Below are positions 5,018-23,811 of a stretch of DNA of 64,000 nt, in pieces. Position numbers and translations under genes: made by a program. Positions within the stretch are counted from its first letter, which is position 1; each line of letters begins with the position of its first letter. The notes under the pieces were generated by a model. It was not told the DNA's origin, did not search any database, and saw only the letters and a program-made list of their open reading frames with translations. Where the stretch lies: contig RQJH01000001.1 in NCBI GenBank assembly GCA_014156375.1, positions 62,001 to 126,000 on the forward strand, in the 5' to 3' direction. This stretch comes from Enterobacteriaceae bacterium 89 (GTDB lineage Bacteria > Pseudomonadota > Gammaproteobacteria > Enterobacterales > Enterobacteriaceae).

Positions 5018-6265
5018 TTACCCCTGCGGCTGATTGCTGATCAGCCGCGACATCGTCTCCAGCGAATCCGTTCTTAAGATGTACAGGCGCTTCAGTAAGA
5101 ACGGATTATCCCCCGGCTTCACCTTCCCTTTCACCGTCGTCACTGCCATATGAAAACCGGCGTCATTCGCGGCCTGTAGCGCTATGGTGTTATAGCCACC
5201 AAACGGGTAGGAAAGATAGAGCACGTGTGGGTTGAACTGGCCCAGCGCACGACGCGAATGCTCAAAATCGAACAAAATATTGTGGTAGCTGCGGCTCAGC
5301 AGGATCGGATGATAGTGTGCGTCCACTCGATGCAGGAAATGGGTATGCGACTGAACGTCAAACACGTCCTGGATCTCTTTCAGTTCAGAAATACTCATAA
5401 ACTGCAGCGATTTCGGATCCCATTTCTGCGGATGACGTTTAATTCGCGAAGAGATAATAAACGCCGTCGCTTTGAAATTGTATTGCCGCAGGATCGGCCA
5501 GGCGTAGCGGTTGACCGACTTCAGCCCGTCGTCAAAAGTAATCACCACCGAGCGCGCTGGCAGGTTCATCTTATTGCGCAGGTAAGCTTCCAGCTGATAC
5601 ATCGTCAGGGTGGTATAGCCCTGATCGCGCAGCCACGTCATCTGGTTGCTGAACGCACGCACCGAGGTGGTCGTCGAGGTGTGACGGAATCGGGTATTTT
5701 CTTCATCACGCAGAATATGGTGATAGGTGAGGATCGGAATACCGTTATCTTCCTGTGCGTCCAGGCTGCTGACCCACGCCAGGCGGTTGCCAATTCGGAT
5801 CTGATACCAAGTCTGATGCAGGCCATCTTTGAGCTTGCCGATAATCGGATAGCGCAGGTTATCTGCCAGCACGCCAAACTGCGCGCTGCCGACATTCGGC
5901 GCGTTATACACCGGGGTGTCGCGCCAGGTGATGAGATTTTGATTGCTGAGCGGCTTATTCAGATCGCCAAGATTGTCCTCGACGCGCTGCTTGCCCTGGA
6001 CCTCTTCCAGATGGCCCTTATCGATAAATCCGGTACCAAAACCAAAGCTGAATTCGTAGTAATCGGCGGCGGTTGGCACCACCGCCAGAATTTGTCCACC
6101 GCGCACGTTGCCGACGGTCACCACGTCATTGCCCACCTGCGCCCAGATAATGGCGTCTTCGGTGACCTGCATGTAGCGGGCAGGCTGCCCGTGCTGACTC
6201 AGCAGGCTGGCGCTGGCGCTGCCAGACAGAAGCAACAACAAAGAGAAAATGACTCGAATCAGCAT
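5018..6265 (-). CDS. yadE: Exported polysaccharide deacetylase (YadE-like)
   Basis: This is a predicted exported carbohydrate esterase of the NodB/CE4 type. The N-terminus is a signal peptide (hydrophobic [11 protein letters not shown], then SASA before SLLSQ). A region of about 120 residues with SH3-like character follows, then the deacetylase domain: ILTYHHI, the catalytic and metal motif VVITFDDG, and the metal-binding SHTHFLH. The substrate is unknown; surface glycans or peptidoglycan are typical for the family. I chose the internal ATG at 6265 (415 residues) because it places the signal peptide at the N-terminus and fits the family length; the ATG at 6301 would add 12 residues. The gene converges on panD with 3 bases between stops. 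Confidence 0.85.
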
Positions 6266-6329
6266 GCGCTCACAACCGCTACGATGGGTGGTTTTAATCA
6301 TGTAACAAAAACCCCATCAATACCAACGA

Positions 6330-6770
6330 TTAATTGGCGTACAGGTCGTGAAGCAGAACAAACGGGGGATTTTTTTGTTGCTGATGCCAGAGACTGCTGA
6401 CCTCCGGGCCACCCTGCGTCACGATGGCATTGCGGAAGGCTTCGCTGCTGAGGGTTTGCCGCTGCTGAATCATCTGCTCCAGCAATAAATAGTCGATACC
6501 GGAAATGACTTCACAGTGTTGATGTTTATGGCTCAGCAGCGCTGCAGTACGGTACGGGGGAGCCCCGGTGATGTCCGTCAGAAAAATTACGCCGTCGCCG
6601 CTGTCGGTCTGATACAGCGCGTCGCACATCATCCGGCTCAGCATATTGGTGCTGAGTCCACGCCAAAAGCTTACCGCCCGGCATTGCGCCAGCGGCCCGA
6701 ATTTTTTTTCCAGTTTTTCCAACAGATCCTGCGCACGATCGTCGTGGCAGGCGATCACCCAACCCAACAT
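6330..6770 (-). CDS. yadI: Orphan mannose-family PTS EIIA domain protein
   Basis: This single-domain protein of 146 residues has the EIIA(Man) fold. The phosphorylatable His is His9 in IACHDD, and the conserved downstream segment GVIFLTDITGAPPYRTAALLS is present. No EIIB, EIIC or EIID partner lies nearby, so the transport target, if any, is unknown. It may act as a regulatory phosphocarrier. It lies between the yadE deacetylase and the yadGH exporter, all on the minus strand, with a 59-base gap before yadE's longer start codon. Confidence 0.88.
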   Translation of the reverse strand: MLGWVIACHDDRAQDLLEKLEKKFGPLAQCRAVSFWRGLSTNMLSRMMCDALYQTDSGDGVIFLTDITGAPPYRTAALLSHKHQHCEVISGIDYLLLEQMIQQRQTLSSEAFRNAIVTQGGPEVSSLWHQQQKNPPFVLLHDLYAN

Positions 6771-6873
6771 AGCCCAGCTCCTTAGCAGGCAAGTAGTTTA
6801 GCGGAGTGAAAGTTGAGGCGAGGTGAGATCGATCAAGTTTGCCTCTCCCCGGAGCGGAGAGAGGCAAAAAGCA

Positions 6874-7644
6874 TTAGCTACGCAGCCCAAGCCCGCGCTG
6901 GATTAGCGTATAGCACAGCAGGTAGAACGCCAGAATGAACACTACCAGTACGCCGACGGTGGTGAACAGCGGCACGTCGGTGATACCGAGGAAGCCAAAG
7001 CGGAAGCCGCTGATCATGTACACAATCGGGTTCAGATGCGACAGCGCCTGCCAGAACGGTGGCAGCAGCGTCAGGGAGTAGAACACCCCACCCAGATAGG
7101 TCAGCGGCGTCAGCACAAAGGTCGGGATCAGGCTGATATCGTCAAACGTTTTGGCGAACACGGCGTTCAGCAGGCCAGCCAGCGAGAACAGGATCGCCGT
7201 CAGCAGCAGCGTCAACCCAACGAACAGCCAGGAGTGCACCTGGAACGGCACGAAGAACAGGGAGATAGCCGTGACCAGGATCCCGACGCACAGCCCGCGA
7301 GCGACACCGCCACCCACGTAACCGGCAATCACCACGTGCGTTGGCACAGGTGCCACCAGCAGCTCTTCAATATTGCGCTGGAACTTGGCGCTAAAGAATG
7401 ACGAAGCCACGTTGGCATAGGCGTTGGTGATCACCGCCATCATGATCAGACCCGGCACGATGAACTGCATGTAGCTGAAGCCGTGCATGTCGCCGATGCG
7501 TGAACCAATCAGGTTGCCAAAGATAATGAAATAGAGGGTCATGGTGATGACCGGCGGAACCAGCGTCTGGATCCAGATCCGCATAAAGCGGTTGATCTCT
7601 TTGGCCCAGATACTTTTCAGCGCCACCCAATACAGCTGCATCAT
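6874..7644 (-). CDS. yadH: ABC-2 type transporter permease
   Basis: This 256-residue inner-membrane protein has about six hydrophobic segments and the ABC-2 family layout. It includes the loop containing VPFQVHSW and the conserved PLTYLGGVFYSLTLLPPFWQ stretch near the C-terminal third. It forms the channel for the ATPase encoded just upstream (yadG), which overlaps it by 4 bases (ATGA). Exporters of this type move drugs, lipids or polysaccharides; the cargo of YadGH is not known. A GC-rich hairpin with arms TTTGCCTCTC and GAGAGGCAAA lies just after the stop, at 6838-6866. Confidence 0.93.
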   Translation of the reverse strand: MMQLYWVALKSIWAKEINRFMRIWIQTLVPPVITMTLYFIIFGNLIGSRIGDMHGFSYMQFIVPGLIMMAVITNAYANVASSFFSAKFQRNIEELLVAPVPTHVVIAGYVGGGVARGLCVGILVTAISLFFVPFQVHSWLFVGLTLLLTAILFSLAGLLNAVFAKTFDDISLIPTFVLTPLTYLGGVFYSLTLLPPFWQALSHLNPIVYMISGFRFGFLGITDVPLFTTVGVLVVFILAFYLLCYTLIQRGLGLRS

Positions 7645-8567
7645 GCCTGCTCTCCTGACTTTGTATTTACCAGCGTGACGAACAGCTCTTCCAGGCGGTT
7701 GGCTTTGTTACGCATACTTAAAACCTGAATTCCCTGCTCGCTCAGCTGCGAGAACACGCTGTTGACGCCCTGCTCACGCAGCACTTCCACTTCCAGCGTC
7801 GAGGTATCTACCAGGCGATACTGATAGCCGTCGAGATGCGGCAGCGGGCTTTTCGGCGCGAGGTCGAGAATGAAGGTTTCTGACTTCAGCTTCGACAGCA
7901 GGTTTTTCATCGAGGTGTTTTCTACCAGCTCACCGTGCTGAATAATGCCGATGTTGCGGCACAGCATTTCGGCTTCTTCCAGATAGTGGGTGGTCAGAAT
8001 GATGGTGGTGCCTTTATCGTTGAGATCTTTCAGGAAGCCCCACATCGAGCGGCGCAGTTCAATATCCACGCCCGCCGTTGGTTCATCCAGAATCAGCAAT
8101 TTTGGCTCGTGCATCAGCGCGCGGGCAATCATCAGGCGGCGCTTCATCCCACCGGATAACATGCGCGCACGCTCGTTGCGTTTTTCCCACAGGTCGAGCT
8201 GTTTGAGGTATTTTTCGCTGCGAGCTACGGCCTCTTTGCGCTCAACGCCGTAATATCCCGCCTGGTTCACCACAATCTGCTGCACGGTTTCAAACGGGTT
8301 GAAGTTGAACTCCTGCGGAACCAGGCCCAGCTGGCGCTTGGCATTCACCACGTCCTTGTCGAGATCGTAGCCGAAGACGTCTACCGTTCCGGAGGATTTG
8401 TTCACCAGCGAGCTGATAATGCCGATGGTGGTGGATTTCCCCGCCCCGTTCGGCCCAAGCAGCGCATAGAAATCCCCTGCCTCGACCTTCAGGTCGATAC
8501 CACGCAGCGCCTGAACGCCACCGGGGTAGGTTTTTTTCAGCTGTTTCAATTCAAGTGCAATGGTCAT
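7641..8567 (-). CDS. yadG: ABC transporter ATP-binding protein
   Basis: This 308-residue ATPase powers the YadH permease. Walker A is GPNGAGKST, the signature is LSGGMKRR, Walker B is [12 protein letters not shown], and the switch His is in [11 protein letters not shown]. The long C-terminal extension after the nucleotide-binding domain is usual for the ABC-2 exporter group (DRA/CcmA-like). The gene is divergent from can, with a 106-base gap between start codons that must hold both promoters. Confidence 0.94.
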
Positions 8568-18315: not shown

Positions 18316-19983
18316 ATGACGTTGCCTTTTAAGCCTCATGTTATTGCGCTGGTCTGCTGTACCGGGCTACTCGCTGCTTCGGGCACGCTCTATGTTAAGA
18401 GCCGCGCTGCGGATGCTCCGCCCACGCCTGCTCCTGTCGCTCAACCGGTCGTTCCAGTTCCAGCTCCGGTGGCCGCAGCGCCAGTCAGCGCTCAGCCCGC
18501 CACTCAAACTTTTACCGCAGCGCAAATCGACCAGTTAACCGCACCGGTGGCGCTCTATCCTGACAACCTGCTTTCCCAGGTGCTGATGGCATCGACTTAT
18601 CCCACTAATGTTATGCAGGCCGTGCAATGGTCGCAGGATAACCCGAGCATGAAGGGGGATGACGCGGTGAAAGCCGTGGCGAATCAGCCGTGGGACCCGA
18701 GCGTGAAATCACTGGTGGCGTTCCCGGCCTTGCTGTCGCTGATGGGGGAAAACCCGCAGTGGGTACAGGATTTGGGTAACGCCTTCCTCGCCCAACCGCA
18801 GGATGTGATGGATTCCGTGCAGAAATTACGTAACGTGGCGCAGCAAACGGGAGCGCTGAAATCCTCTCCTCAGCAGAAAGTGACCACCACCCCGGTGAAA
18901 GCAGCCCCGGCTCCGGTGCAGTCGTCTTCTACCACCACGACCACCACAACTACGACACCAGCGCCGACCACCCAGGTGATTAAGATTGAATCGGCCGATC
19001 CGAACGTGGTGTACGTGCCAACCTATAATCCGAATACCGTTTACGGCACCTGGCCAAGCACCGCTTATCCGCCGGTGTACCTGCCACCAACGCCGGGCCA
19101 GCAGTTCACTAACAGCTTTGTGAATGGCCTCGGCTACAGCCTCGGCGTGGCGACGACCTATGCCCTGTTCAGCAGCATTGACTGGGATAACGATGATTAC
19201 CATCATCATCATGATGATGACTATTACCACGACGGCGGCTGGCACGGCGGTGGCAATAACACCATCAACATTAATACCAATAACTACAACCACATCACCG
19301 GGCAGAACATCAGCGGCAACACCCAGTGGCAGCACAATCCAGCGTTCAGAAATAACGTGCCTTATCCGAACAACAACGTGGCTCAGCATTTTCATCAGAC
19401 CAACGTACCGGGCGGGTTAAGCGCTACTCAGCACGCGCCGGCAGATTTAAACAGCCAGCGCCAGGCCGCACTGAATCAGTTCCAGCACAGCACCCATAAT
19501 GGTGCAGCGCCGGGTCTGATTGCCGGAGGAGCCGCAGCGGGTGGCATTGCCGCCGCAGGCTCACGCGATGCGCAGCGCCAGGCGGCTTCCAGCCAGCTGC
19601 ATCAGATAAATCAGCGTAACAATTTCCGTGGTTACGATGGCACGGCAGCGAAGCAGAAACTGCAACATCCAACGGCGCAACAGCAGCAGCGCCGCGAAAA
19701 TGCGAAAGCGCATGTGCAGAATCCAACGGCCCAGCAACAGCAGCGTCGTGAACAGATCCAGCAGCACCATGCATCGGTCACACCACAGCAGCATCAGCAA
19801 CGCCAGCAGCAGGCGCAAAACTTCCGCGCCAATGCGCTGAGTGGTAACGACAGCCGTTCACCGTCCTGGGAAGCCCAGCGTCAGCGCGGGGCGCAAAGCC
19901 GCAATCTGTCCGGTATCAGTAGCTCGCAGCGGGCTTCGATCCAACAGCATGCTTCTCAACATCGTGAACTGCGCCATCGCTAA
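18316..19983 (+). CDS. yacH: DUF3300 exported protein (YacH-like)
   Basis: This 555-residue envelope protein is of unknown function. It has an N-terminal hydrophobic signal or anchor (HVIALVCCTGLLAASGTLYV) and a Pro/Ala/Val-rich linker. The DUF3300 domain spans about residues 60-290 (TAPVALYPDNLLSQVLMAST, then a YVPTYNPNTVYGTWP segment). After it come a Thr-rich spacer, a His/Asp cluster (DDYHHHHDDDYYHDGGWHGG) that could bind metal, and a Gln/His/Arg-rich tail with a repeated PTAQQQQRRE unit. ATG at 18316 has AGGAG 7 bases upstream. It lies 9 bases before a DUF2950 gene, so the two are probably co-expressed. Confidence 0.9.
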   Translation: MTLPFKPHVIALVCCTGLLAASGTLYVKSRAADAPPTPAPVAQPVVPVPAPVAAAPVSAQPATQTFTAAQIDQLTAPVALYPDNLLSQVLMASTYPTNVMQAVQWSQDNPSMKGDDAVKAVANQPWDPSVKSLVAFPALLSLMGENPQWVQDLGNAFLAQPQDVMDSVQKLRNVAQQTGALKSSPQQKVTTTPVKAAPAPVQSSSTTTTTTTTTPAPTTQVIKIESADPNVVYVPTYNPNTVYGTWPSTAYPPVYLPPTPGQQFTNSFVNGLGYSLGVATTYALFSSIDWDNDDYHHHHDDDYYHDGGWHGGGNNTININTNNYNHITGQNISGNTQWQHNPAFRNNVPYPNNNVAQHFHQTNVPGGLSATQHAPADLNSQRQAALNQFQHSTHNGAAPGLIAGGAAAGGIAAAGSRDAQRQAASSQLHQINQRNNFRGYDGTAAKQKLQHPTAQQQQRRENAKAHVQNPTAQQQQRREQIQQHHASVTPQQHQQRQQQAQNFRANALSGNDSRSPSWEAQRQRGAQSRNLSGISSSQRASIQQHASQHRELRHR

Positions 19984-19992
19984 GGAGCCATC

Positions 19993-20787
19993 GTGAAAAA
20001 ACAGATTATTATCGGCATGCTGGCTTGCTTCACCCTGCCCGCGTTTGCGCAGCAGCAGTTTGCCTCGCCGGAAAAAGCAGCCAGCGCGCTGGCCGATGCC
20101 ATGGGCAGCCAGGATGAGCAAGCGTTAAGCCAGGTGTTGGGCGACGACTGGCGTCAGTATTTACCGGCAGAAGGTGCCGATCCGGAAGCCGTGGCCCGCT
20201 TCCTGCGAGACTGGAAAGTCAGCCACCACATTATCGAACAAGGCAATGCCGCCCATCTGAACGTTGGCGCGGAAAACTGGCAGCTGCCGATCCCGATGAT
20301 CAAAACGGGCGCTGGCTGGCATTTTGATATGGCCCAGGGCGCGGATGAAATTCAGGTGCGGGAAATTGGCCGCAATGAACTTTCCACCATTCAGGCGATG
20401 CACGCCTACGTTGACGCCCAACAGGATTATTTCCAGCGTTTTCAGCACTATGCGAAGAAGCTGATCAGCAGCGAAGGGCAGAAAGATGGGCTTTACTGGC
20501 CGACAGTATCTGGCGAAGACCCAAGTCCTCTCGGCCCGGCCTACAGCCCGCAGGTTCCCGGCATGGGCTATCACGGCTACCATTTCCGCATTCTCCCGGA
20601 CGCCAGCAAACAAGGCTTTGCTTTGATTGCCTGGCCGGTGCAGTACGGCCAGACCGGGATCATGAGTTTTACCGTCGACCAGAACGACCAGGTCTGGCAG
20701 GCCAACCTTGGGGAAAATTCTGTCGATAAAGCCAATGCCGTCAAACGCTTCGCGCCGGAAAAACCCTGGCAGGAAGTGACTCAGTAA
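19993..20787 (+). CDS. DUF2950 exported protein
   Basis: This 264-residue exported protein is of unknown function. The start is GTG with AAGGAG 7 bases before it. The signal peptide is MKKQIIIGMLACFTLPAFA, cut before QQQFASPE. The mature domain (QFASPEKAASALADAMGSQD, DGLYWPTVSGEDPSPLGPAY, GYHGYHFRIL, FALIAWPVQYGQTGIMSF) matches the DUF2950 family as I remember it. It follows the DUF3300 gene by 9 bases. E. coli K-12 has yacH but, to my knowledge, no DUF2950 partner beside it. Confidence 0.85.
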   Translation: MKKQIIIGMLACFTLPAFAQQQFASPEKAASALADAMGSQDEQALSQVLGDDWRQYLPAEGADPEAVARFLRDWKVSHHIIEQGNAAHLNVGAENWQLPIPMIKTGAGWHFDMAQGADEIQVREIGRNELSTIQAMHAYVDAQQDYFQRFQHYAKKLISSEGQKDGLYWPTVSGEDPSPLGPAYSPQVPGMGYHGYHFRILPDASKQGFALIAWPVQYGQTGIMSFTVDQNDQVWQANLGENSVDKANAVKRFAPEKPWQEVTQ

Positions 20788-20922: not shown

Positions 20923-22239
20923 ATGCAGATAACAACACCACGCGCCTGGCTGATTCGGGGCATACTTCTTTGGCTTTTTGCCTGGCTGATTTGCAGCGCG
21001 TTGCTGTATGCAGAACAGATCCGCCGCCAGTACTGGGAATCGGACCGGGCCTTTACGGCGTTGTTCAGCACCCTCAGCATGGCCCTGACGCAAAATGAGT
21101 CCGTGATCCCCATTCTTAACGGTGATGAAGATCCCGCGCTGCTACAACAGAAATTCCCGCAGATCCAGGCGCTGGAGAAAACGCACGACGTCCCGCTTGA
21201 TGCGCCGCGCGTGCAGCCTCTCAGCGAAACCAGCTACTGGCTGTACAATCCCTACCGGCAGATCAGAGTCAAAATTAATCTGGCACAGCTGCTGAAGTCC
21301 GATACCCATTTCACTGGCATCCAACTGGGCCTGATTAAACCCCATGATTTAAGCCACTGCCGCTGGCTGTGGACCCGACAGTTCCCTCAGCATTTTCAGC
21401 CTTTTACCCTCCAGGCTGGGGCCGATCCGCGCTGGCTCAGCGTCGCCCTGCTCCCGCACCTTTTCATCGCGCTGGCGTGGGGATTTATTATCAGCATGGT
21501 AATGCTGCTGCTGTGGGTCAGAAGTCAGCAACGCACAGACAGGCAGCGTGCAGATTATTACCAGCACGCCAGGCTGAACACGCTGGGTGAACTAACGGCC
21601 GGCGTCGTTCACGAGATTAATCAGCCGCTGACGGCAACGCAGATGTGGCTCCAGGGCGGGCTGCGTCAGTTGGATCAGCACAACGTCGACGGAGCCCAGC
21701 ATGCCATTCGCTCCGCGCTGACCCAGACTCAGCGCATCAGCGAACTACTGACCCGCTTTCGCGCTCATCTGAGCGAAGAGCCGGTCACCATGACCATGGT
21801 GGATCTGGCCCACAGCTGGCAGCGAGTCGGCAATCTGCTGGAGCATGAGCCGGGTTCTAAGCAGATTCGTATTACCCATGATTTCTCGACCCGCCGCGTT
21901 CTGACCGATCGCCTGTGGCTGGAGCAGGTGCTGCATAATCTGTTGAACAACGCCATTCAGGCGCAGACGAACGTACAACACGGCTGGGTGCATATCAAAA
22001 GTGAGGCTGCGGGCGATAAAGTGAAAGTGACCCTTACCGACGGTGGCCCGGGTTTTAGCAGTGAAGCGTTGAAGCTCGGTCTGATGCCGCTGTTTACCGA
22101 GCGGCAGGGCGGCCTTGGTCTGGGACTGACACTAACAGAATCGCTGATGACCCGCATGGACGGCAGCATTGAGCTGGCAAACAGCGCACAAGGTGGCGCG
22201 GAAATCCGCCTGTGGTTCAGCCAGGAGAAGCGAGCATAA
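20923..22239 (+). CDS. Two-component sensor histidine kinase with periplasmic domain
   Basis: This is an inner-membrane kinase of 438 residues. One membrane segment is at about 11-30 and a second at about 176-199, enclosing a periplasmic sensor region of about 145 residues that I cannot assign to a known family. The H-box is at His230 (AGVVHEINQPLTA), the N-box at NLLNNAIQA (about 339-347), then DGGPGFS and GGLGLGLT for ATP binding. The HEINQPL form of the H-box is typical of the FixL/DctB-like HisKA group. Its stop overlaps the response regulator start by one base, so the two are a cognate pair. An exported HbpS-like gene follows. The signal is unknown. Confidence 0.9.
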   Translation: MQITTPRAWLIRGILLWLFAWLICSALLYAEQIRRQYWESDRAFTALFSTLSMALTQNESVIPILNGDEDPALLQQKFPQIQALEKTHDVPLDAPRVQPLSETSYWLYNPYRQIRVKINLAQLLKSDTHFTGIQLGLIKPHDLSHCRWLWTRQFPQHFQPFTLQAGADPRWLSVALLPHLFIALAWGFIISMVMLLLWVRSQQRTDRQRADYYQHARLNTLGELTAGVVHEINQPLTATQMWLQGGLRQLDQHNVDGAQHAIRSALTQTQRISELLTRFRAHLSEEPVTMTMVDLAHSWQRVGNLLEHEPGSKQIRITHDFSTRRVLTDRLWLEQVLHNLLNNAIQAQTNVQHGWVHIKSEAAGDKVKVTLTDGGPGFSSEALKLGLMPLFTERQGGLGLGLTLTESLMTRMDGSIELANSAQGGAEIRLWFSQEKRA

Positions 22240-22850
22240 TGGAAAAAATTATCTACATCGTCGACGATGACGCCTCGATCCGCGAGTCGCTGACGTTTCT
22301 GTTTTCCACCCTCAGCTGGCAGATACAAAGCTTCGAGTCTCTCGATGCGTTCACCCTCGCCTGCCCGCCGGAGATGAAGCTGACCGGCTGTCTGCTGCTG
22401 GATATGCGGATGCCCGGCCAAAGCGGATTAAGCTGGCTCGAACGCCACAGCGCATCGCACCCACTGCTGCCGGTGGTGATGATGACCGGGCATGGCTCCA
22501 TCGATGCCTGCCGCCGGGCCTTCCATCACGGCGTGTTTGAATTTTTCACCAAGCCGCTGGATGCCGATCTGCTGATTGAAACCCTGCACTCTGCTTTTGC
22601 CCAAAGCGAAGCTCGTCACCAGATCTGGCAGGAACACGTTCAGGCAAAAACGCTCTTTGCGCAGCTCACCGCGCGAGAGTCGGAAGTCCTGGAACAGCTG
22701 ATGACAGGGGCGAGTAACAAAGAAGTGGCCGCGCAGCTCGACCTGTCGACCCGCACGGTAGAAGCACATCGGGCAGCCATCTTCAGCAAGCTTGGCGTCA
22801 GCAGCCTGGTGCAAGCCATCCGCGAACACGACAAGCTGCACTACGTATAA
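22239..22850 (+). CDS. Response regulator, FixJ/NarL type
   Basis: This 203-residue DNA-binding regulator pairs with the upstream kinase. Receiver domain (about 1-120): acidic pocket DDD at 9-11, phospho-acceptor Asp55 in LLLDMRMPG, Thr83 in MMTGHG and Lys105 in FTKPLDAD. The LuxR-type helix-turn-helix is at about 140-200 (LTARESEVLEQLMTGASNKE, then STRTVEAHRAAIFSKLGVSS). ATG at 22239 is used because CAGGAGAAG lies upstream and the receiver begins at once; the earlier ATG at 22212 overlaps the kinase. Target genes are unknown; the downstream HbpS-like gene and the upstream DUF pair are natural candidates. Confidence 0.92.
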   Translation: MEKIIYIVDDDASIRESLTFLFSTLSWQIQSFESLDAFTLACPPEMKLTGCLLLDMRMPGQSGLSWLERHSASHPLLPVVMMTGHGSIDACRRAFHHGVFEFFTKPLDADLLIETLHSAFAQSEARHQIWQEHVQAKTLFAQLTARESEVLEQLMTGASNKEVAAQLDLSTRTVEAHRAAIFSKLGVSSLVQAIREHDKLHYV

Positions 22851-22938
22851 ATACCAGGATAACTGCGTATTCCCCCGAATTTCGCTTCCTTTGTGCCGTT
22901 GGTAGCATCGGTTTATCGACGACAAAAGGAAGCAAGCC

Positions 22939-23418
22939 ATGAACAAACTGTTCCTCTCCGCCGCATTAACCACGACCCTGCTCGCCACCGCCGCTCAGGC
23001 TGAAGCGCTGAATCAGAAATCTCTCTCACTGAGCCAGGCCAACGCTCTGGCGCAGGAAGCCGTCAAAGCCTGTTTAGCTAAAAACTATCAGGTCAGCGTA
23101 ACCGTGGTCGATCGCGCCGGTGTGGTCAAAGCGGTGCAGCGTAGCGACAACGCAGGTCCACACACCGTAAAAGCCAGCGAAATGAAAGCCTTTACCGCAC
23201 TCACCATGAAGAATGCCAGCGGCAAAGTGATGGAAGCCGCCCAGGCGAATCCAGGCGCGCAGAATTTAAAAGACATTCCGGGCCTGCTGCTGCTGGCTGG
23301 CGGTTTGCCAGTCAAAGACGGCAATGACGTGATTGGGGCGATTGGCATTGGCGGTGCGCCGGGGGGAAATCTGGATGAAGCCTGCGCTCAGGCGGCTCTG
23401 GATAATGTGAAGCTGTAA
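22939..23418 (+). CDS. Exported HbpS/GlcG-family (DUF336) protein
   Basis: This 159-residue protein has a clear signal peptide (MNKLFLSAALTTTLLATAAQA, cut before EALNQ). The HbpS/GlcG fold is recognised by LSLSQANALAQEAVKACLAK, VTVVDRAGVVKAVQRSDNAG, KAFTALTM and the C-terminal VIGAIGIGGAPGGNLDEACA. In Streptomyces HbpS binds haem outside the cell and controls a sensor kinase, SenS. Here the gene lies 88 bases after a kinase/regulator pair, so a similar sensor accessory role is plausible but unproven. The start ATG has AAGGA upstream. A REP-like pair follows the stop. Confidence 0.88.
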   Translation: MNKLFLSAALTTTLLATAAQAEALNQKSLSLSQANALAQEAVKACLAKNYQVSVTVVDRAGVVKAVQRSDNAGPHTVKASEMKAFTALTMKNASGKVMEAAQANPGAQNLKDIPGLLLLAGGLPVKDGNDVIGAIGIGGAPGGNLDEACAQAALDNVKL

Positions 23419-23526: not shown

Positions 23527-23811
23527 TTAGCCCTGATGCGGCATCAAACCAGGCTGTGCAACCACGGCTGGCTGAGTGCTGGAAAGAGCCTGCTCGTCGG
23601 CTTTAATGCTGCCGGAGTTAGCGGCCCAAACACCTTCCTGGGTTTTGGTGATCGCCTGATGCTGGGCATTCATGTTTTGCCCCATCGGCGCGATGTGAGT
23701 GGTTTCGGTGCCACCGGTGTTATCAGCCCACGGGATCACCGGATCGTCTGCCAGCGCCAGACCTGAAAACAGAGTGGTCGCCAGCACTGCTGTAGTCAAA
23801 AATGTTTTCAT
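23527..23811 (-). CDS. Small exported protein of unknown function
   Basis: The 94-residue product has a signal peptide (MKTFLTTAVLATTLFSGLALA, cut before DDPVIPW). The mature part of about 73 residues is polar and without Cys (TTHIAPMGQNMNAQHQAITK). I do not recognise it. ATG at 23811 has AGGTG 5 bases upstream; an ATG at 23826 is a weaker alternative. A palindrome CGCTAAGAGTTTAGCG at 23841-23856 lies just upstream and could be an operator. It converges with the HbpS-like gene and lies downstream of lpd on the same strand, behind the lpd terminator. Confidence 0.7.
   Translation of the reverse strand: MKTFLTTAVLATTLFSGLALADDPVIPWADNTGGTETTHIAPMGQNMNAQHQAITKTQEGVWAANSGSIKADEQALSSTQPAVVAQPGLMPHQG

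Follow-up and report, generated by a model that had tools for sequence, protein, structure and literature searches.

The locus described here lies in a 64,000-nucleotide stretch of the Enterobacteriaceae bacterium 89 genome (assembly GCA_014156375.1, contig RQJH01000001.1, positions 62,001 to 126,000), called the window below, and consists of three genes: a sensor histidine kinase, a FixJ-type response regulator and hbpS, which encodes an exported HbpS/GlcG-fold protein. I conclude that this trio is probably a self-contained, mobile signalling cassette that has hbpS as its main dedicated output. Three lines of evidence speak for output: an operator and promoter at hbpS, kinase-regulator pairs that live without hbpS, and a parallel with the HprRS two-component system. 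An earlier, sequence-only reading had HbpS acting on the kinase; the direction may be the reverse, since the clearest evidence (operator, -10 element, pairs lacking hbpS) runs from the regulator to hbpS.

20923 to 22239, + strand: sensor histidine kinase of 438 residues, HisKA type, with His230 (Pfam, motifs, relatives)
22239 to 22850, + strand: FixJ-type response regulator of 203 residues, receiver and GerE domains (Pfam, NCBIfam)
22939 to 23418, + strand: hbpS, exported HbpS/GlcG-fold protein of 159 residues (Pfam, nearest structures)

The trio and its distribution

Kinase and regulator overlap by a single base (TAATG, at the kinase stop) and 88 bases separate the regulator from hbpS, so that the layout described in the earlier reading is borne out by open reading frames, Pfam and motifs. 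The kinase carries HisKA (PF00512) and HATPase_c above their Pfam cut-offs, with His230 in its H-box, an N box at 338 and G boxes at 373 and 397, and its hydrophobic segments, starting at residues 8 and 171, have about 145 residues between them. HbpS scores 109.8 bits against PF03928 (cut-off 25) and is the sole PF03928 gene found in the host genome.

A pattern scan of a genome contig collection with HbpS gave 168 relatives, of which the best 80 were kept; all 80-locus counts refer to these, and the scan favours close relatives (best-segment identity 47-87%). A related kinase lies just upstream on the same strand in 76 of the 80 loci, a related regulator in 78, and the full trio is kept in 76, which means that the arrangement is not due to chance. 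Of the other four, L057 has an unlinked hbpS, L063 lacks the kinase, L088 lacks the kinase and has a truncated regulator, and L110 has neither gene. The loci come from alpha-, beta- and gammaproteobacteria, with Enterobacterales, Burkholderiales, Pseudomonas, Rhizobium and Xanthobacter among them. In the window the trio is flanked by acnB and lpd (gene names assigned by eye), surroundings that recur in only four loci (L033, L034, L040 and L047), with other neighbours elsewhere. The kinase is also found on plasmids (at E<=1e-40, in 10 records out of 72,556). One of these is a conjugative IncF plasmid of Salmonella enterica subsp. houtenae, where an outer-membrane beta-barrel gene completes a row with kinase, regulator and hbpS (L189, 7983-11199).

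Among 246 genomes of the host's family, 34 have the kinase (E<=1e-30; 33 of the 245 other than the host) and 34 have an HbpS above 200 bits; 32 have both, two the kinase only (G119 and G148), two HbpS only (G109 and G216) and 210 neither (Fisher's test 2e-35, uncorrected for shared descent). G109 and G216 retain the regulator and have no kinase beside hbpS. Together with the 76 loci, this co-occurrence supports the earlier view of the three genes as one set. Of 229 genomes sampled across the class, 90 gave an HbpS-like match, only three of them above 200 bits, and all three have kinase and regulator; this kinase-regulator pair was found within about 1.5 kb in none of 27 lower-scoring HbpS-like loci fetched from the sample. 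Neighbourhood conservation, which the earlier reading had proposed as a check, thus gives a divided answer: the close HbpS clade keeps the trio, against the possibility that hbpS is usually found without the pair, whereas distant exported HbpS-like genes usually do lack it, although some adjoin two-component genes of other kinds. In line with the earlier remark that Escherichia coli K-12 lacks the three genes here, neither megablast of the trio nor blastn of hbpS gave a match in a collection of 5,426 E. coli genomes.

The operator before hbpS and the predicted reach of the regulator

When the regulator-hbpS gaps of many loci are aligned, two GTA-n4-TAC-like sites emerge with a 22-bp period, the tandem occupying 22842-22880 in the window.

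22842 to 22858, + strand: operator half A (core GTATAAATAC at 22845-22854; site 22845-22858), overlapping the regulator's last codons and stop (phylogenetic footprint)
22867 to 22880, + strand: operator half B (GTATTCCCCCGAAT), 22 bp after half A (phylogenetic footprint, pattern scans)
22903 to 22908, + strand: -10-like element TAGCAT, 22 bp after half B (conserved offset)
22884 to 22933, + strand: inverted repeat GCTTCCTTT / AAAGGAAGC, right arm over the hbpS ribosome-binding site (covariation in 6 close sequences)

This tandem operator appears to be a candidate target of the regulator. TANNNT stands exactly 22 bp past half B in 71 of 83 distinct gap sequences, many of them from close relatives, as against a mean of 0.7 at 29 other offsets tested; a consensus promoter scan did not pick up the hbpS promoter. 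With the -10 element at TAGCAT, transcription would start near 22915 and the operator halves would be centred near -43 and -65. FixJ protects two regions of the fixK promoter, -69/-44 and -57/-31, and motifs selected by FixJ include GTAGTTTCCC (PMC4999443). Given the spacing of the sites and this precedent, it is likely that the regulator activates hbpS from the tandem sites. FixL-FixJ/fixK resembles the trio in its FixJ-like regulator, its GTA-type sites and its two bound regions (PMC4999443), which in the trio are predicted ones, but here the regulator falls below the FixJ cut-off, the kinase has a periplasmic sensor and the probable target is hbpS. The best NCBIfam profile for the regulator is indeed FixJ (NF006900), at 160.2 bits against an equivalog cut-off of 255, so that the protein is FixJ-like and not FixJ.

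An operator profile was built from 60 of the 83 distinct sequences; it was thus trained on the loci tested, which makes the presence of a site a matter of construction, but not the absence of second sites. On the 80 named loci (1.26 Mb) it found exactly one site in 65 and none in 15, with no hit for a reversed control. A stricter pattern, allowing up to three mismatches, has a single match in the 4.72-Mb host genome. A looser pattern gave 46 matches in the 34 kinase-bearing genomes (reversed control, 41): 29 at hbpS, two before an outer-membrane gene and 15 elsewhere; the 17 matches with no more than one mismatch divide into 16 at hbpS and one before the outer-membrane gene. The family also provides natural experiments. 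In G068 no hbpS follows the kinase-regulator pair; the gene sits on a different contig and has the operator some 60 bases before it. G060 has a second operator copy before the outer-membrane gene on another contig. G119 and G148, two of the 34 genomes with the kinase, have kept it and the regulator but no trio-type hbpS, and what comes after the operator region in them is the outer-membrane gene. A relative of this gene lies within about 310 bp after hbpS in 8 of the 80 named loci, as well as in further family genomes; a search of the host genome, made without a positive control, gave no match to it. These results point to a small predicted regulon, made up of hbpS alone or, in some lineages, of hbpS and one outer-membrane gene.

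They also bear on the idea that the kinase controls neighbouring transport or metabolic genes, with hbpS as a mere passenger. The trio does have such neighbours: genes for an amino-acid-type ATP-binding cassette transporter in loci of Enterobacter, Lelliottia, Yokenella, Trabulsiella and Pantoea, and those for a DASS-type transporter and a fumarase in Cedecea and Enterobacter sp. Ag1. Yet the trio stays constant while its surroundings differ among genera, and each of the 65 loci has its one operator hit and none has two, so I regard this idea as very improbable.

The inverted repeat is a separate matter. Over six close sequences, 81% of its cells are paired, as opposed to 46-57% when the arms are slid, and the single-strand fold has a z of -2.1. 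Its left arm precedes the start of the regulated transcript deduced above, so only read-through RNA could be masked; in such RNA the repeat could hide the hbpS ribosome-binding site.

Several further observations concern the operator and the genes around the trio. L063 (same genome as L186) and L185 have regulator and hbpS with no adjoining kinase; the operator is weakly scoring in L063/L186 and in L185 none rises above background. An ankyrin-repeat gene comes right after hbpS in L066 (7293-8054), L076 (5027-5902) and L166 (6242-6964), all outside the host's family (L066 and L076 called by Pfam, L166 by eye). In the window, a DUF3300-DUF2950 pair lies directly upstream of the trio at 18316-20787; in a paper on nodule bacteria the pair is described as universally co-localised, induced and equipped with signal peptides (PMC4653623). 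On the other side, 23527-23811 of the - strand encodes a small exported protein of 94 residues that has no Pfam match and adjoins the trio in close relatives too.

Candidate receivers of the signal: the kinase sensor and HbpS

21001 to 21432, + strand: periplasmic sensor region of the kinase, about residues 27-170, predicted Cache-like fold, uncatalogued family (model, fold search)
22939 to 23001, + strand: HbpS signal peptide, residues 1-21, AQA site (19-21), no twin arginine (read from the sequence)
23071 to 23073, + strand: codon of invariant Cys45 (92 of 92 distinct proteins)
23383 to 23385, + strand: codon of invariant Cys149 (92 of 92 distinct proteins)

The sensor region of the window matched no Pfam or NCBIfam family, and a Pfam scan of 54 members of its own family returned just two stray weak matches. 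Placement in a known sensor family was rejected, as Pfam gave none and a sequence search of the PDB only weak, unrelated chains. The earlier statement that the sensor matches no known family therefore holds; no named family was found, and so none with a known, unrelated ligand that could speak against a set of this kind. A fold search with the full-length kinase was filled by kinase cores. A model of the sensor region alone is confident (predicted local distance difference test, pLDDT, 93.6). With VIA-align, Mlp24, KinD, PctB and CqsR are among its best matches, at Z 7.0-9.1, near chance-match level; the top 23 rows are all structures or models of sensors from chemoreceptors or kinases, and I take the majority to be Cache domains. 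Foldseek with the same model returned nothing at E<=0.001. Across 53 distinct rows Tyr105 and Gln159 never vary. The modelled Cache-like fold points to no particular ligand.

For the trio clade 117 HbpS proteins were gathered, 92 of them distinct, and all 92 share Cys45, His75, Lys83, Asp146 and Cys149. In the Streptomyces protein Ala and Tyr take the places of the two cysteines. In the trio clade Cys45 and Cys149 may form a structural disulphide or a redox switch, to judge from their conservation. As a hallmark of the trio the pair was rejected, being common to exported relatives without the kinase: Cys45 is present in 29 of 29 more distant exported HbpS-like loci of the class sample (the window's own left out) and Cys149 in all 27 where the alignment reached. 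Some long frames hinted at HbpS fusions; the two that were judged by eye look like read-through before a signal peptide.

A further reading is that HbpS senses haem or iron as in Streptomyces; haem was one of the signals that the sequence-only reading thought possible. The protein is of the same Pfam family, its nearest solved structures are those of Streptomyces HbpS, and the residue equivalent to Lys108 is Lys in the window. However, Lys is found there in just 16 of the 92 distinct proteins. The published haem residue Thr113 and iron motif E78xxE81 (PMC3754957) fare worse: the equivalent of Thr113 is Leu116 in the window and Phe (86) or Leu (6) across the set, and the window has Lys78 and Glu81, while not one of the 92 has Glu at both positions. 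Formaldehyde is what another member of the family, EfgA, senses (PMC8153426). Haem sensing as the default was accordingly rejected, haem binding as the signal was not borne out, and I consider either haem or iron sensing by this HbpS improbable.

Less improbable, though still doubtful, is a closed loop in which HbpS is output and accessory sensor at once: it would bind a non-haem small molecule or report redox state through Cys45 and Cys149, touch the Cache-like sensor and tune the kinase in the manner of HbpS-SenS. There is actinobacterial precedent, as SenR activates hbpS in Streptomyces (PMC3754957), and in the trio clade Cys45, Cys149 and His75 never vary. HbpS distances also follow those of the sensor beyond what the catalytic domain and regulator explain (partial r 0.28, as against -0.04 for the catalytic part, over 49 distinct kinases; by other distances 0.19-0.21 against 0.07-0.15), although shared ancestry is not removed from any of these correlations. 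The regulator's DNA-binding domain, though, correlates with HbpS likewise (0.32-0.42; 0.23), which contact does not explain. Moreover, HbpS is well conserved, with a mean identity of 0.62, and the sensor poorly, with one of 0.28; the cysteine pair recurs in exported HbpS-like proteins that lack this kinase, and G119 and G148 keep kinase and regulator with no trio-type hbpS.

Other HbpS types, known systems and the probable role of the cassette

A second exported HbpS type is represented by nine family genes at 130-151 bits, whose loci were fetched. In five of the nine (L187, L188, L194, L195 and L197) an HprRS-type pair is divergent from hbpS; the two regulators scanned score 397 and 403 bits against NCBIfam HprR (cut-off 353) and have an OmpR-type DNA-binding domain (Trans_reg_C). 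A relative of hiuH adjoins hbpS in six of the nine (not seen in L187) and belongs to the Transthyretin family in the two scanned. HprR-box-like repeats stand before hbpS in all nine; with a pattern loosened after the sites had been seen, they number 13 in 104.5 kb (the nine loci and G407) and six in 1.26 Mb of other loci. L188 displays the whole arrangement at 5392-8462: an exported HbpS of the second type with hiuH, a divergent HprRS-type system and an HprR-box-like repeat. From the class sample, 16 wider regions without the trio were surveyed, in a way that may overlook distant kinases. Two-component genes turned up in G407, where hbpS and a CopRS-type pair are divergent, and in G372, where hbpS is followed by a HisKA_3 kinase and a receiver protein. 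In E. coli, hiuH-msrPQ is induced by hypochlorite through HprSR and by copper through CusSR (PMC9302797). Given these neighbours, the repeats and the E. coli response, the second HbpS type looks like an output of envelope redox stress. The analogy favours an envelope redox role for the trio as well, perhaps in defence against oxidants. Of the haem-or-redox signal proposed earlier, the redox part thus gains support from the neighbours of another HbpS type, and the haem part is not supported.

The HprRS system with hiuH-msrPQ in E. coli has in common with the trio a periplasmic stress output under a two-component system, in the trio a putative one; it differs in that the HprR-type regulators scanned have an OmpR-type domain and another DNA box, whereas the trio of the window has a FixJ-type regulator and no such box. 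HbpS-SenS-SenR of Streptomyces likewise places an exported PF03928 protein beside a kinase and a response regulator. SenS, however, is a kinase of HisKA_3 type, and HisKA_3 is not among the Pfam domains reported for the window kinase, which belongs to the HisKA type, has two membrane segments and probably senses through a Cache-like domain; here the claim of a kinase subfamily other than that of SenS was correct. The gene order, kinase-regulator-hbpS, sets the window apart too, and its HbpS lacks a twin-arginine (Tat) signal and the published haem and iron residues, and bears the cysteine pair that the Streptomyces protein lacks. EfgA, GlcG and the PduO C-domain share the HbpS/DUF336 family with the window protein, but EfgA is cytoplasmic and PduO is in a microcompartment (PMC8153426). 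In Mycobacterium smegmatis, MSMEG_0243/0244/0246 join an exported haem-binding protein and a two-component system in one operon, although MSMEG_0243 belongs to Pfam PF16525 and not PF03928 (PMC7516205). A 2016 paper describes hbpS-like genes clustered with senS and senR genes in actinobacteria only (PMC4991794), and no account of a proteobacterial kinase-regulator-hbpS set was found in open-licence literature. The trio represents a variant, in another phylum and with another kind of kinase, of the HbpS-SenS-SenR arrangement of actinobacteria.

In the cassette as I picture it, the kinase would sense a periplasmic ligand or stress, perhaps an oxidant, through its small Cache-like domain and phosphorylate the FixJ-type regulator, dimers of which, at about -65 and -43, would recruit RNA polymerase in the way of FixJ at fixK. 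The periplasmic HbpS, with its paired cysteines, would accumulate and bind or neutralise the inducing compound or its damage. The outer-membrane beta-barrel gene would join the same regulon in a subset of lineages, and feedback of HbpS on the kinase is possible, yet would be unnecessary for retention of the kinase.

Some results weigh against this picture. The regulon was searched for in the tandem form of the operator, and lone sites elsewhere would be missed. The 15 loci without a profile site are mostly from alphaproteobacteria and Variovorax. The looser pattern has no match in G020, G031 or G190, the sole match of G119 is elsewhere, and the 15 matches elsewhere all carry two or three mismatches and are not above chance by the reversed control. 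That HbpS distances track the kinase sensor fits an input role too. Finally, neither an HprR-box-like repeat in the window nor an HprR above cut-off in the host genome was found, so the redox link of the trio is by analogy.

A wider view, which I hold tentatively and at somewhat less than even odds, joins these strands. Several unrelated two-component systems would each have recruited an exported HbpS-fold protein to deal with redox stress in the periplasm: SenS-SenR in Actinobacteria, HprRS- or CopRS-type systems with hiuH in Gammaproteobacteria, a HisKA_3 kinase in another genome and the FixJ-type cassette of the window. The cassette would then be a mobile closed loop in which a nearly single-target regulator makes HbpS, and HbpS scavenges an oxidant or reports back through its invariant cysteines, while in close relatives the hairpin at the ribosome site limits hbpS translation to its own regulated promoter.

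HbpS-like proteins are common, with a match in 90 of the 229 genomes of the class sample, and few have a known role. As the pair apparently controls mainly hbpS, from a compact predicted promoter, a reporter screen could reveal to which compounds such proteins respond; hypochlorite and copper are the first candidates, to judge from the HprRS and hiuH genes beside the second HbpS type.

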